Below, piece by piece: positions 6,041 through 10,409 of a DNA stretch of 64,000 bases. The notes under the pieces are model-generated. The model searched no databases. It was not told where the DNA came from and saw only the letters and a program-made list of their open reading frames with translations. Numbering within the stretch: position 1 is the first letter of the stretch; each line of letters begins with the position of its first letter. The position numbers and the translations under genes were made by a program. The DNA lies in contig JAVVHA010000006.1 of assembly GCA_032249735.1 (NCBI GenBank), positions 1 to 64,000 of the forward strand, read 5' to 3'. Origin of the DNA: Dehalococcoidia bacterium (GTDB lineage: Bacteria > Chloroflexota > Dehalococcoidia > SM23-28-2 > HRBIN24).

Positions 6041-7002
6041 CCTGTTACCTCCGTGAGAAGGTGGGCTTCCAAGGCCTGGGCAGTGGCTTTGGGCAGGGTG
6101 CGCTTCACCAGGCCTGTCAGCACTTGTCCAGGTCCCACTTCCAGGAAGGTGTCCACGCCTTGAGAGGCCATGAATTGTAAGCTCTCGAGCCAGCGCACAG
6201 GAGTGGTGAGCTGGATGGCCAGCTCCCGCCGGATCTCGGTGGCGGCGGAGAGGGCCCATGGAAAGGCGTTGCCCACTACTGGGATCCGGGCGTCCCTGAT
6301 GGGGGCTTCGGCCAGGGCCTGGGCCAGCCCGGCAGCGGCGGAGGCCATGAGGGAGGTGTGAAAGGCCCCGGACACGGCTAAGGGCACCGCCCGCCCTCCC
6401 CGTTCACGGGCCAGGCGGGCGGCTGCTGCCACCACCTCCTGGGGCCCGCCGATCACCGTCTGTTGGGGGGCGTTGTAGTTGGCCGGCTCCGCCCCCGTGA
6501 GCTGGCAGATCTCATCTACCTCTTGGGTGGTGAGGCCCATGATGGCCACCATGGTTCCTGGCCTCTCCCGACTGGCCTGGGCCATGAGCTCCCCTCGCCT
6601 GCGCACTAGGCGGAGGGCCGAGGCCATGTCCAAGGCGCCTGCTGCCACAAGGGCGGTGTATTCTCCTAGGCTGTGGCCAGCCACCAGGGCGGGACGTCCC
6701 CTCAGGATGTCTGCATCGAGGGCTGCCGCCAGGTAGGCGAGGGAACAGGCCAGGATGGCTGGCTGGGCGTTGGCGGTGTGAGTGAGCTCGTCCTCGGGGC
6801 CATGGAACATGAGGCGGCTTAGGGGCCATCCCAGCACCTGGTCCGCTTCCTCCAGCACCAGGCGGGCCACACGAGATGTACCCCACAAATGGCGTCCCAT
6901 CCCTAACCTCTGGCTGCCCTGACCAGGGAACAGCAGGGCCAGGCGAGGCTGTGGCTCCCTCTCCCAGAGCCCCTCCAAAAGGCGTGCCAATTCGCCGCTC
7001 AT
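6037..7002 (-). CDS. fabD: Malonyl-CoA:ACP transacylase FabD
   Basis: 321 residues. LFPGQGSQ at 24-31, the nucleophile Ser111 in GHSLGEY, and the catalytic His215 in SGAFHTSLM mark the malonyl transferase family. It loads malonate on ACP for elongation. The start overlaps the end of the small zinc-ribbon gene by 4 nt, and the end overlaps fabG by 4 nt, so the three are translationally coupled. The N-terminal 20 residues (SGELARLLEGLWEREP) are a short extension before the usual start of the fold. Confidence 0.95.
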   Translation of the reverse strand: MSGELARLLEGLWEREPQPRLALLFPGQGSQRLGMGRHLWGTSRVARLVLEEADQVLGWPLSRLMFHGPEDELTHTANAQPAILACSLAYLAAALDADILRGRPALVAGHSLGEYTALVAAGALDMASALRLVRRRGELMAQASRERPGTMVAIMGLTTQEVDEICQLTGAEPANYNAPQQTVIGGPQEVVAAAARLARERGGRAVPLAVSGAFHTSLMASAAAGLAQALAEAPIRDARIPVVGNAFPWALSAATEIRRELAIQLTTPVRWLESLQFMASQGVDTFLEVGPGQVLTGLVKRTLPKATAQALEAHLLTEVTG

Positions 7003-7199
7003 GGCGCTGCTTCAGAGGTCAAGTGCTTGAGGCCACAGTCGGGGTTAGGACACCGTCCGAAGGGGTCCAGGCGGGAGCGGCAGAGGATACAGTGGGTGGC
7101 GTCCCACCACAGAAAATAGGCCACCAGGAGGGCAGCTGCTGCGATCATGCCCAAAGGCACCAGGGCGAAGAGGAGGTATCGGCGTCCCAAGGCCCGCAC
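6999..7199 (-). CDS. Small membrane protein with a zinc-ribbon-like tail
   Basis: 66 residues from a GTG with AAGG close upstream. One hydrophobic segment (about 8-30) is followed by CILC (about 37-40) and a second pair (GRCPNPDCG, about 49-56), so four cysteines could bind zinc. I do not recognise a named family. Its overlap with fabD (4 nt) and a good promoter just upstream make it a real first gene of the fab transcript. The cysteines follow directly after the membrane helix, on the cytoplasmic or outer face; orientation is uncertain. Confidence 0.7.
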   Translation of the reverse strand: MRALGRRYLLFALVPLGMIAAAALLVAYFLWWDATHCILCRSRLDPFGRCPNPDCGLKHLTSEAAP

Positions 7200-7258: not shown

Positions 7259-7453
7259 CTAGCGGGTCCCCTCCACGGGCAGGACCTGACGGCCGCGATA
7301 TGTCCCACACACAGGGCAGACGTGATGGGGCATCTTGGGGCTGCCGCAGCGAGAACAGCGCACCAGGGCAGCCACCTGCGCGTGCCAGTGGGCCCGTCGT
7401 TGCCGAGTCTTGGCCTTGGAGGGCTTCTTCTTGGGGACGGCTCCCACGGTCAC
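7259..7453 (-). CDS. rpmF: Ribosomal protein bL32
   Basis: 64 residues. It has the typical basic start VPKKKPSKAKTRQRRAHW and a zinc ribbon with CSRCG and CPVCGTYRGR. It belongs to the large ribosomal subunit. The start is a GTG that overlaps the DUF177 stop by 4 nt (GTGA), a conserved yceD-rpmF coupling found in many bacteria. Confidence 0.95.
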   Translation of the reverse strand: MTVGAVPKKKPSKAKTRQRRAHWHAQVAALVRCSRCGSPKMPHHVCPVCGTYRGRQVLPVEGTR

Positions 7454-7974
7454 TCCTCCCTAAGTCGAGCGGCCAGGGCCTTTAGGGCTGCCCAGCGGCT
7501 GTCCATGGGGGCTGGGCAACGGCACTTCCCGGCGTTAAGATCGCCCCCACACTGGGGACAGAGGCCACGACAGTCGGGTCGGCACAAGGGGGCCAGGGGC
7601 TGGGCCATGATGGCATATTGACGCACCGACTCGTGCAGGTCTAGCACAAAGTCGGGCCCAATGGTGAAGTTGTCAGACTCCTCAGGCAGAGGGATGGGGG
7701 CGCCTGTAAGGACGTCCACCACGGGCAAGAACTCCTCCTCGAAACCCAGGTCCAGGGGGTAGTCCACCTCCGCCAAGCAGCGGGCGCACTGACCATGGCT
7801 TATGCCCTTTAGCGAGGCCCGCACTAGGATGCCACGGTTGGTGCGCACTAGCTCCACCATACCCGCCATCTGCCACAGGGTCACGTCCTCTAACTGCAGT
7901 ATCTCCTCCGAGAGCTGGTAGCGGGTGCAAGTTCCCACCGGTTGCTTCAGCAGGTATGTGACACGGAACCGCAT
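7450..7974 (-). CDS. DUF177 (YceD-like) protein
   Basis: 174 residues from the ATG at 7974, preferred over the upstream GTG because AGGTGGGG lies at better spacing. DUF177 marks are the CARCL motif near the middle (QCARCLAEVDYPL) and the C-terminal CRPDCRGLCPQCG, giving two cysteine pairs. The family is linked with 23S rRNA and large-subunit accumulation and nearly always precedes rpmF, as here. Divergently oriented to the zinc-ribbon operon at 8075. Confidence 0.9.
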   Translation of the reverse strand: MRFRVTYLLKQPVGTCTRYQLSEEILQLEDVTLWQMAGMVELVRTNRGILVRASLKGISHGQCARCLAEVDYPLDLGFEEEFLPVVDVLTGAPIPLPEESDNFTIGPDFVLDLHESVRQYAIMAQPLAPLCRPDCRGLCPQCGGDLNAGKCRCPAPMDSRWAALKALAARLREE

Positions 7975-8005
7975 AAACGACCCCACCTAGGGGCTCTCTT
8001 GTTCC

Positions 8006-8035
8006 TTGTCAGTGGCCCTCTGCTCAGTTTATAAT
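8006..8035 (+). promoter_or_regulatory. Promoter of the zinc-ribbon/recombinase-like/rnhA operon
   Basis: TTGTCA (8006-8011), an 18-nt spacer and TATAAT (8030-8035), about 40 nt before the start codon at 8075. Confidence 0.6.
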
Positions 8036-8074
8036 CCCTTCGCAGGCCTTGTCCAGCCCCCTCGGGAGCCCGGC

Positions 8075-8776
8075 ATGAGCTCTATATCCCGACTTTATGC
8101 CTTGCAGGAGACAGACCTAGCCATTGATGCCCTCAGGCAACGCCTTTCCGACGTCATCTCCCAGCTAGGGGAGTGGGAGGAGGTGAAGGCCCTCAGGGAG
8201 GAGGTGGATAGCAGGAGGCGTCGCCTGGAGGGGTTGCGACGTCAGCAACGGGATCTGGAGCTGGAGTTGGGGGGTCTGCGGGACAAGGCCAAGGCGGTGG
8301 AGCGCAAGCTCTACGGGGGTGAGGTGCGCAATCCCAAAGAGCTGCAGAGCCTGCAGGACGACCTGCATGCCCTGATGCGCCAGATCTCCCACAAGGAGGA
8401 CATGGTCCTGCAGCTCATGCTGGAGGCGGAAGAGGAGGAAAAAGCGTTACAGGAGGCCCAGGCTCACCTCTCCAGCCTTCTTCAAGAGTGGGAAAAGGAA
8501 CAAGAGGCGTTAACCGCTGAGAAGGTGAGGCTGGAGCAGGAGCTGGGGCGGCTGGAAGAGGTGCGAGCGGGCCAGGCGAGGCAAGTGGACCCCCCTCTTC
8601 TCGCCCTGTATGAGGGGCTACGATCCCGCCGCCAGGGCAGGGCCGTCGCCAGGGTGGAGCGAGGCCTGTGCGGGGGGTGCCACATCGCCCTGCCCACTTA
8701 CCTGGTGCAGAAAGCACGGGCTGGCAACGCCCCCGTGCAGTGTACCAGCTGCGAGCGCATCCTGTTTGCAGGCTAG
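8075..8776 (+). CDS. Coiled-coil protein with C4 zinc ribbon (DUF164/CT398-like)
   Basis: 233 residues from an ATG with GGGAG upstream. A long heptad-rich helix (about 10-185) is followed by a C4 zinc ribbon with CGGC (LCGGCHIALP) and CTSC (QCTSCERILF), the plan of the DUF164/COG1579 family. The family is thought to act in nucleic-acid or nucleotide handling, but its exact role is unknown. The recombinase-like gene starts 2 nt after its stop, and rnhA follows, so the three are one transcript. Confidence 0.88.
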   Translation: MSSISRLYALQETDLAIDALRQRLSDVISQLGEWEEVKALREEVDSRRRRLEGLRRQQRDLELELGGLRDKAKAVERKLYGGEVRNPKELQSLQDDLHALMRQISHKEDMVLQLMLEAEEEEKALQEAQAHLSSLLQEWEKEQEALTAEKVRLEQELGRLEEVRAGQARQVDPPLLALYEGLRSRRQGRAVARVERGLCGGCHIALPTYLVQKARAGNAPVQCTSCERILFAG

Positions 8777-8778
8777 AG

Positions 8779-10002
8779 ATGCGAGGCTGGGGCTTCTTTC
8801 CCGGTGCCCTTCCTGGCCAGCAGCAGGCCTTCCTGGCTCTCTGCCGCAAGAAGGGTCTTGAGCCGGGGCCCTGGCTCACCGAGGGCAGACCTGAGGAGGT
8901 GGTGCGTGGCCTTGGGCCCGGCGATGTGCTGGTGGTGCCTGGACCTGAGGCCCTGGGCCCCGACGCCGCGTCCGCCTCCTGGGCCTATTTCCAGGCCCTA
9001 GCCGCCGGTGCTCAGGTGGTGGACTTGGCTGGCCAGGACTTGGCAGCTCATATCGTGAGCATGGGAGCAGACCCCCGAGGTGGGCAGGTGCGGGAGGCTA
9101 TGGCGCGACGGGCCGTGCGAGGCCAAGTGCTGGGGCGCCCCCCTTTTGGCTACCGCATAGGCCCCCAGAGGCGGCTAGAGGTGAACCCCCAAGAGGGGGA
9201 GGTGGTCCGCCTCATCTTCCGCCTTTACGTGAGGCAGCGGCTGGGCCTGCGCCGCCTGGTGCAGCACCTCAATTCCCTGGGCCTCCCCACCCGCACAGGC
9301 AGGGCTTGGACGGTGGCTGCTGTGCGAGATGTCTTGCGCAACCGGGCCTACGTAGGCACATATCGCCGATTCGGCGTCAGGGTGCCAGCCAGCCACCCGC
9401 CCCTGGTATCTCACGAGGAGTTCCAGCAGGCCCAGGAGCGGCTGCAGCAGGGGTCCAAGGGCCGACTCCGCCAAAGCTCGGGCGATACGTTTGCCCTGGC
9501 GGGGATGGCCTTCTGCGCCTATTGTGGTGGGAGCATGGTGGGGGTAAGACGTCGTCAAGTTTGGCGGCGCCACGATGGGACGCCCCAGGAGGGCCTCTAT
9601 CGCTACTACCAGTGTGGCTCTCGCCTCAACCGCAGCATGTGCGACTACCACACCTGGCGGGCCGATGAGCTGGAGCGTGAGGTGGTCCAGGCCCTACTAC
9701 AAGGCACGGCCCAGCCTGGCACGAGGCCCCTGCACGCCGAGGCTCAGCAAGAGCGCTTGCGCCGCAGCCTGCGGCGTCTTTTGCAGATGGTGGCCCGTGG
9801 GGACATCTCCCTGGAGGAGTGGCGTCAGGAGGGGATAGAACTGGTGACCCAAGCGGAAATCCCCCTGGCCTCTCAGGAAGCCAGGTCGCTATTGGCCTCC
9901 TGGGACTCCCTTTCACCTCCAGACCGTAGGCGTGTGCTCCTAACTCTGGTGGAAAGGGTGGAGGTCTGGGACGACCATGTGGAGGTGGTGGCCCGTCCAT
10001 GA
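8779..10002 (+). CDS. Serine-recombinase-like protein lacking the catalytic serine
   Basis: 407 residues. Residues about 105-225 match the Recombinase domain (GRPPFGYR, VVRLIFRLY, LNSLGLPTRTG, VRDVLRNRAYVGTY), followed by a zinc-beta-ribbon with C246, C249, C279, C288 and a C-terminal helical part. In active members an N-terminal resolvase domain has YxRxS and LDRLSR motifs. Here the corresponding stretches read GFFPGALPG (5-13) and GPEALGP (55-61), so the nucleophile Ser and the Asp-Arg pair are missing. It sits 2 nt after the zinc-ribbon gene and overlaps rnhA by 4 nt, with no flanking att-like repeats or mobile genes. I infer a domesticated DNA-binding protein, not an active integrase. The ATG at 8779 is chosen as the first after the preceding stop. 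Confidence 0.85.
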   Translation: MRGWGFFPGALPGQQQAFLALCRKKGLEPGPWLTEGRPEEVVRGLGPGDVLVVPGPEALGPDAASASWAYFQALAAGAQVVDLAGQDLAAHIVSMGADPRGGQVREAMARRAVRGQVLGRPPFGYRIGPQRRLEVNPQEGEVVRLIFRLYVRQRLGLRRLVQHLNSLGLPTRTGRAWTVAAVRDVLRNRAYVGTYRRFGVRVPASHPPLVSHEEFQQAQERLQQGSKGRLRQSSGDTFALAGMAFCAYCGGSMVGVRRRQVWRRHDGTPQEGLYRYYQCGSRLNRSMCDYHTWRADELEREVVQALLQGTAQPGTRPLHAEAQQERLRRSLRRLLQMVARGDISLEEWRQEGIELVTQAEIPLASQEARSLLASWDSLSPPDRRRVLLTLVERVEVWDDHVEVVARP

Positions 10003-10409
10003 CCAAGGTGGTGGCCTATGCCGATGGCGCCTCTCGTGGCAACCCAGGCCCAGCGGCCATCGGTGTCGTCCTGATGGACGAAGCTGGGAAGGAGCTGTAT
10101 ACTGTTTCCAAGCCTATTGGGGTGGCCACCAACAATCAGGCCGAGTACCGGGCGGCCATCGCCGCCCTGGAGGCTGCCCTAGCGTTGGGCGCGACCAAGG
10201 TGGAGCTGCGTATGGACTCCCAGCTGGTGGTGCGCCAGATCCAGCACCGCTACCGCGTGCGGGACCCCAACCTGAGGCCCTTGTTCCATCGGCTGCTGGA
10301 GCTGAGGCGCCGCTTCCAGGAGTTCGTGGCCGTGGACATCCCCAGGGAGGAGAACAGGCGGGCCGATGCCCTGGCTAATGAGGCCTTGGATAGAGGAGCG
10401 CAGCCATAA
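9999..10409 (+). CDS. rnhA: RNase HI-like ribonuclease
   Basis: 136 residues. Catalytic acids are D9 (AYADGASRGNPG), E49 (NNQAEY), D73 (RMDSQ) and D123 (RRADALAN). The sequence lacks the basic protrusion of E. coli RNase HI, as in many short archaeal-type or Gram-positive enzymes. It cuts RNA in RNA-DNA hybrids. The start overlaps the recombinase-like gene by 4 nt. Confidence 0.93.
   Translation: MTKVVAYADGASRGNPGPAAIGVVLMDEAGKELYTVSKPIGVATNNQAEYRAAIAALEAALALGATKVELRMDSQLVVRQIQHRYRVRDPNLRPLFHRLLELRRRFQEFVAVDIPREENRRADALANEALDRGAQP

Follow-up and report, generated by a model that had tools for sequence, protein, structure and literature searches.

Large serine recombinases, such as SPbeta YokA and the integrases of phiC31, Bxb1 and Listeria A118, are the best fold matches of the protein studied here (REC), which shares their domain order of resolvase fold, Recombinase domain, four-cysteine zinc ribbon with coiled coil, and closing hairpin. 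In the Listeria integrase-DNA structure, bases are contacted by the regions corresponding to the helix after Trp177 of REC and to its zinc hairpin (PMC3783163). Unlike these enzymes, REC appears to have lost catalysis, its DNA-reading residues are fixed instead of variable, and it is encoded in a core-chromosome operon with no element, att site or phage genes. Retention of a serine-recombinase relative without catalysis has been described for vaccinia F16, which PMC11980589 presents only as a serine recombinase that is predicted to be inactive and is targeted to nucleoli (Senkevich 2011); unlike REC, F16 is viral, and the likeness of the two is that of this description.

The upstream partner of REC is a member of the DUF164/COG1579 proteins (HP0958/FlgZ, CT398/CdsZ, MSMEG_4306, and Wcw_1456), a widespread and poorly understood family for which REC offers a concrete handle. 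A DUF164 protein is reported to be essential in Mycobacterium tuberculosis (PMC5947703), and DUF164 relatives bind sigma factors (CT398-RpoN and FlgZ-RpoN), this work concerning distant DUF164 proteins and being partly specific for RpoN. The Waddlia homologue Wcw_1456 gave 835 ChIP peaks, with promoters of translation genes prominent, and pulled down RpoD (PMC6426960). A recombinase-derived partner sets the REC system apart; none is mentioned in the passages on DUF164 proteins that were consulted, and the word "recombinase" does not occur in the FlgZ paper. A description of such a family was not found in a search of the open-access literature. What appears new here, next to the viral precedent, is a conserved two-gene module that includes a domesticated and apparently dead large serine recombinase.

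The REC locus

The window (the whole 64,000-nucleotide stretch of Dehalococcoidia DNA that was analyzed) contains the features listed in Table 1. The REC frame opens with an ATG at 8779 and closes with a TGA at 10000 to 10002 (protein-coding part, 8779 to 9999). The TAG of the DUF164 gene (8774 to 8776) leaves a gap of 2 nt to REC, and the start of rnhA at 9999 produces a 4-nt ATGA overlap; coordinates and gene joints were as given in an earlier note on this DNA.

Table 1. Coordinates of features at the REC locus in the window
Feature	Position	Strand	Basis or remark
yceD (DUF177), divergent neighbor	7450..7986	-	With rpmF, fabD, and fabG, conserved core-chromosome context
Sigma-70-type operon promoter, TTGTCA-N18-TATAAT	8006..8035	+	
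TATAATCCCTTCGCAGGCCTTGTCCA, conserved order-specific element at operon promoter; candidate operator	8030..8055	+	
DUF164/COG1579 (CT398/FlgZ-like) coiled-coil zinc-ribbon protein	8075..8776	+	Pfam; 5' of REC in 77/77 named loci
REC, large-serine-recombinase homologue, predicted catalytically dead, 407 aa	8779..10002	+	ORF, Pfam, alignment, AlphaFold2
Degenerate resolvase (catalytic) domain, aa 1-85	8779..9033	+	Alignment and model
Recombinase (RD) DNA-binding domain, aa 137-224	9187..9450	+	Pfam; helix after Trp177 nearly invariant in family
Recombinase zinc-ribbon (ZD) domain, aa 240-306, Cys246/249/279/288	9496..9696	+	Pfam, alignment
Shortened coiled coil and closing beta-hairpin, aa 318-407	9730..9999	+	Alignment, model
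rnhA, ribonuclease HI (RVT_3 type)	9999..10409	+	Pfam; adjoins REC in 41/75 loci

Pfam recognized the Recombinase (E = 7.8e-21) and Zn_ribbon_recom (E = 2.3e-13) domains in the window REC and found no Resolvase domain there. The DUF164 product matched PF24481 (3.5e-15) and PF02591 (2.5e-8), corresponding to a CT398-type coiled-coil hairpin and a C-terminal CXXC...CXXC ribbon, in which all four cysteines (two CXXC pairs) were invariant. REC was the sole Recombinase-domain protein of the 1.73-Mb window genome, in which no Resolvase-domain protein, and hence no serine recombinase besides REC, was found.

Loss of active-site residues and retention of the fold

The presence of the catalytic residues S10, R8, R45, R68, and R71 was scored in an alignment of 90 distinct REC members and 34 other recombinases. 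All five residues were present in 32 of the 34 other recombinases, whereas S10 together with R68 was found in none of the 90 REC members, no member had more than three of the five, and R68 and R71 were missing in nearly all. Nor was any relative with an intact active site found at the REC locus among the 90. Judged by these columns, catalysis is lost in REC, and the loss that the earlier note had claimed for the resolvase part extends to all members. Recombination through an unusual active site, or a role as accessory subunit of another recombinase, could draw on the Ser or Thr that some members have near the catalytic column; in eight, a Ser occupies the S10 column or lies close to it. We consider this very improbable, as R68 was absent from all eight and never coincides with Ser, the recurring neighbors of REC are housekeeping and not mobile genes, and, with no second serine recombinase in the window genome, there is no active one there to which REC could belong as a subunit. 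Naming by domain would label REC proteins recombinases, though DNA cutting is not to be expected of them.

PF00239 was recognized in 39 of 77 REC relatives, from which the N terminus of the window member is identified as a degraded resolvase domain; it is shorter than in relatives, its fold is kept in the model, and its active-site residues are gone. The DNA-binding part was intact, as had been proposed: PF07508 and PF13408 were both present in 77/77 members, and the zinc cysteines C246, C249, C279, and C288 were invariant in the 77-sequence alignment. The AlphaFold2 model of the window REC was confident (mean pLDDT, 90.7), with large serine integrases as its structural matches, and modeling of the N-terminal domain, suggested in the earlier note, indicated that the resolvase fold is kept. 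The confident model of a full-length relative matched serine integrases, including TP901-1, and resolvase catalytic domains, the resolvase-fold match of the N-terminal domain being weaker for the window member, in whose family the N terminus and coiled coil are shortened further (407 versus about 465 aa). A REC member at L039 (genome G044) was without three of the four zinc cysteines, the rest of its zinc-ribbon sequence being kept.

Distribution, ancestry, and selection

Of 61 genomes searched, 38 gave strong REC matches; among these were 3/3 relatives of the same genus or family and 24 of the 25 genomes from the order. REC proteins were present in the majority of the sampled families belonging to the window's order, as well as in many further families of the class Dehalococcoidia (Chloroflexota). 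A phylum sample and a survey of 84,980 species genomes placed the REC family in Dehalococcoidia, including SAR202, Tepidiforma, HRbin24, and HRbin29; the cultured species Tepidiforma flava has a REC (L129). Profile scores exceeded 430 bits within the REC family and were at most 211 bits for other recombinases, with the divergent member L062 in between; in the tree, the REC family and L062 formed one clade (support, 1.0). REC was single copy and vertically inherited. Close relatives were not found in IMG/VR, which held only distant ones (best, 5e-14), and an origin of the present-day copies from phage was rejected on this basis. Together with the core fab/rpmF context and a tree that agrees with that of the partner gene, these results speak against carriage of REC by a mobile element, in line with the lack of att sites and phage genes stated in the earlier note. 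A defense system was also rejected: PADLOC gave no match for REC, and the matches of the DUF164 coiled coil to JetC/LmuB were generic.

Close-pair dN/dS was 0.06 to 0.32 for whole REC and 0.07 to 0.38 for the N-terminal domain, so that the dead domain is itself constrained; distant pairs (extreme GC) were left out, their values near 1 being attributable to synonymous-site saturation and codon bias. The loss of the catalytic residues and the further shortening in the window's family are what a functionless, decaying relic of an integrated element would display. This reading, or that of a pseudogene, is barely conceivable and is refuted by the selection data and the distribution: in the relatives examined, the frame was open and not interrupted by stops, dN/dS was well below 1, the dead domain included, and REC was kept in many families with a conserved operon. 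The single clade and the purifying selection that the earlier note had proposed to look for were both observed, and neither kind of contrary evidence that it had named was encountered, a relative with an intact active site and signs of decay both being absent.

Conservation of the DNA-reading surface

Mean identity in the REC family was 64% and 59% in the two DNA-binding domains and 36% in the N terminus, whereas in active Chloroflexota enzymes it was 41% and 46% in the two DNA-binding domains and 49% in the N terminus. In active integrases, variation in the DNA-reading domains is no less than in the catalytic domain, and in the REC family the reverse holds. At matched N-terminal identity (25 to 35%), RD+ZD identity averaged 0.57 in the REC family versus 0.28 in active recombinases. 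Recognition-helix positions 178, 180, 183, 184, and 187 were 91 to 99% fixed in the REC family and variable in active enzymes (commonest residue, 18 to 35%), and R258, Q260, W262, Q278, N284, Y290, and T292 were 97 to 100% fixed in REC. Since the DNA-reading helix and zinc hairpin are nearly invariant in REC and hypervariable among active integrases, we infer from the sequences that REC has a single conserved DNA target, and with a surface so frozen, one binding experiment should suffice to reveal the target site. REC domains may also find use as stable site-specific DNA binders that do not cut.

Genomic neighborhood and the link to DUF164

A fixed arrangement, in which fabG-fabD-rpmF-yceD is divergent from DUF164-recombinase(-rnhA), recurred across the class, and this recurring cluster makes the REC locus a fixed core locus, while the recurrence of the three-gene order makes the REC arrangement more than chance. 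The DUF164 gene was directly 5' of REC on the same strand in 77/77 named loci (those with a complete or near-complete REC gene); the median gap was 3 nt, and in 69 loci the two genes were within 10 nt. The trees of REC and DUF164 had 44 of 74 splits in common, against at most 2 after permutation. The constant partner of REC is DUF164, not RNase HI; of the two neighbors to which the earlier note had tied REC, the zinc-ribbon gene is thus the constant one.

DUF164 was present without REC in many Dehalococcoidia. In two genomes, a REC homologue was present and a DUF164 gene was not detected: G025 (L038), where the locus was otherwise conserved (fabD and yceD), and G030 (L037), where REC was relocated and its N terminus hardly recognizable. 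The partnership is therefore not obligatory.

The rnhA gene was immediately 3' of REC in 41 of 75 loci, and 33 of the 75 had no rnhA in the flank. Among 20 Dehalococcoidia loci lacking REC, 7 had rnhA immediately after DUF164, and a link between DUF164 and rnhA is reported from other bacteria (PMC3372290); REC most simply entered this older pair. For REC members without a neighboring rnhA, the RNase HI of the genome was mostly unlinked and of a different type; such a replacement of the operon type was seen in G040, G054, G055, G272, G279, G025, and G030, and no RNase HI was detected in the REC-carrying genome G049 (99% complete). Cognate rnhA is thus not obligatory for REC, since many REC loci are without it, and because members without an adjoining rnhA have the unlinked type or none, the RNase HI link is probably a neighbor effect.

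The earlier note had suggested that REC acts on R-loops together with RNase HI. Joint action with RNase HI on R-loops or RNA-DNA hybrids that are bound by REC and DUF164 would suit the order DUF164-REC-rnhA in 41/75 loci with its 4-nt overlap in the window, the nature of all three products as nucleic-acid proteins, and the correlation of the REC and RNase HI trees (rho, 0.63). We nevertheless regard it as unlikely, and the suggestion is weakened: DUF164 and rnhA are adjacent in loci that lack REC, REC is kept in genomes that have lost the cognate rnhA, and the frozen base-reading residues are a better fit to sequence-specific duplex DNA than to hybrids.

Proposed role of REC

In the mechanism that we propose, a large serine recombinase would have been domesticated in an ancestor of (part of) the Dehalococcoidia, would have ended up between the already adjacent DUF164 gene and rnhA, would have lost DNA cutting, and would then have been retained. 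With its Recombinase and zinc-ribbon domains, REC would bind a single conserved sequence in double-stranded DNA and leave it uncut, and the resolvase-fold N terminus may serve as a dimer or partner-docking domain. REC and DUF164 presumably form a complex in which REC would be the DNA-targeting subunit, with a predicted role in regulating transcription (or, less likely, in organizing the chromosome); the proposal draws on the contacts that DUF164 relatives make with sigma factors and promoters. Ancient domestication of REC into a site-specific DNA binder that does not cut and that works together with DUF164, probably in transcription, is the likeliest of the readings considered and in our estimate an even bet. 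If so, the REC family would be a clear example, in bacteria, of an integrase whose domestication led to a fixed DNA-binding role throughout a class.

The bolder version, in which the whole class uses a phage-type integrase as the DNA-reading subunit of a sigma/RNA-polymerase-associated DUF164 complex at the same sequence in every genome, is put forward tentatively; if true, an integrase-derived DNA-reading subunit of a DUF164 complex, made from a dead large serine recombinase, would represent a novel type of core DNA-binding module in bacteria. RpoN (sigma-54) was not found in the window genome; DUF164 as an RpoN chaperone was accordingly rejected here, and a link of DUF164 to the primary sigma factor would be the likelier version.

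Alternatively, REC might mark one or a few fixed sites for chromosome organization or for replication and segregation, in the manner of ParB or MatP, with the DUF164 coiled coils bridging them. A single-copy protein with a DNA-reading surface frozen class-wide and a coiled-coil partner always adjacent would be suited to this, but no site was found, and par, ori, and ter genes were not seen in the REC neighborhood; we consider such a role doubtful, though less so than one at R-loops, and prefer transcription as the setting in which REC would act.

Operon promoter and candidate operator

Upstream of the operon, the TATAATCCCTTCGCAGGCCTTGTCCA block was conserved well beyond the -10 box. With two mismatches allowed, the pattern of promoter plus TATAATCCCTTCGCAGGCCTTGTCCA had at most one match per genome and was found in 17 of 26 genomes, just 5' of the DUF164-REC operon in nearly all 17; in G018, a two-mismatch match was on another contig. 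The element could be an operator or a leader element and, being order specific, could serve a regulator other than REC. No motif common to different orders was found 5' of the operon, and palindromic dyads at the operon promoter were not above those in shuffles. A CTAANNCTA motif in common with Tepidiforma-type loci was picked after looking and was discounted as evidence.

In the Tepidiforma-type loci L119, L125, L141, L145, L152, and L159, a GGCTAACCCTAGC-like sequence was observed just 5' of the DUF164 start; it may be a GC-rich -10 element belonging to a leaderless mRNA, or an operator. On the divergent side of the locus, the interval between rpmF and fabD in the window (6999 to 7199, minus strand) encodes a 66-aa protein that appears to have a single membrane stretch and ends in a zinc-ribbon-like CXXC...C tail, and a similar small protein recurred in five other loci.
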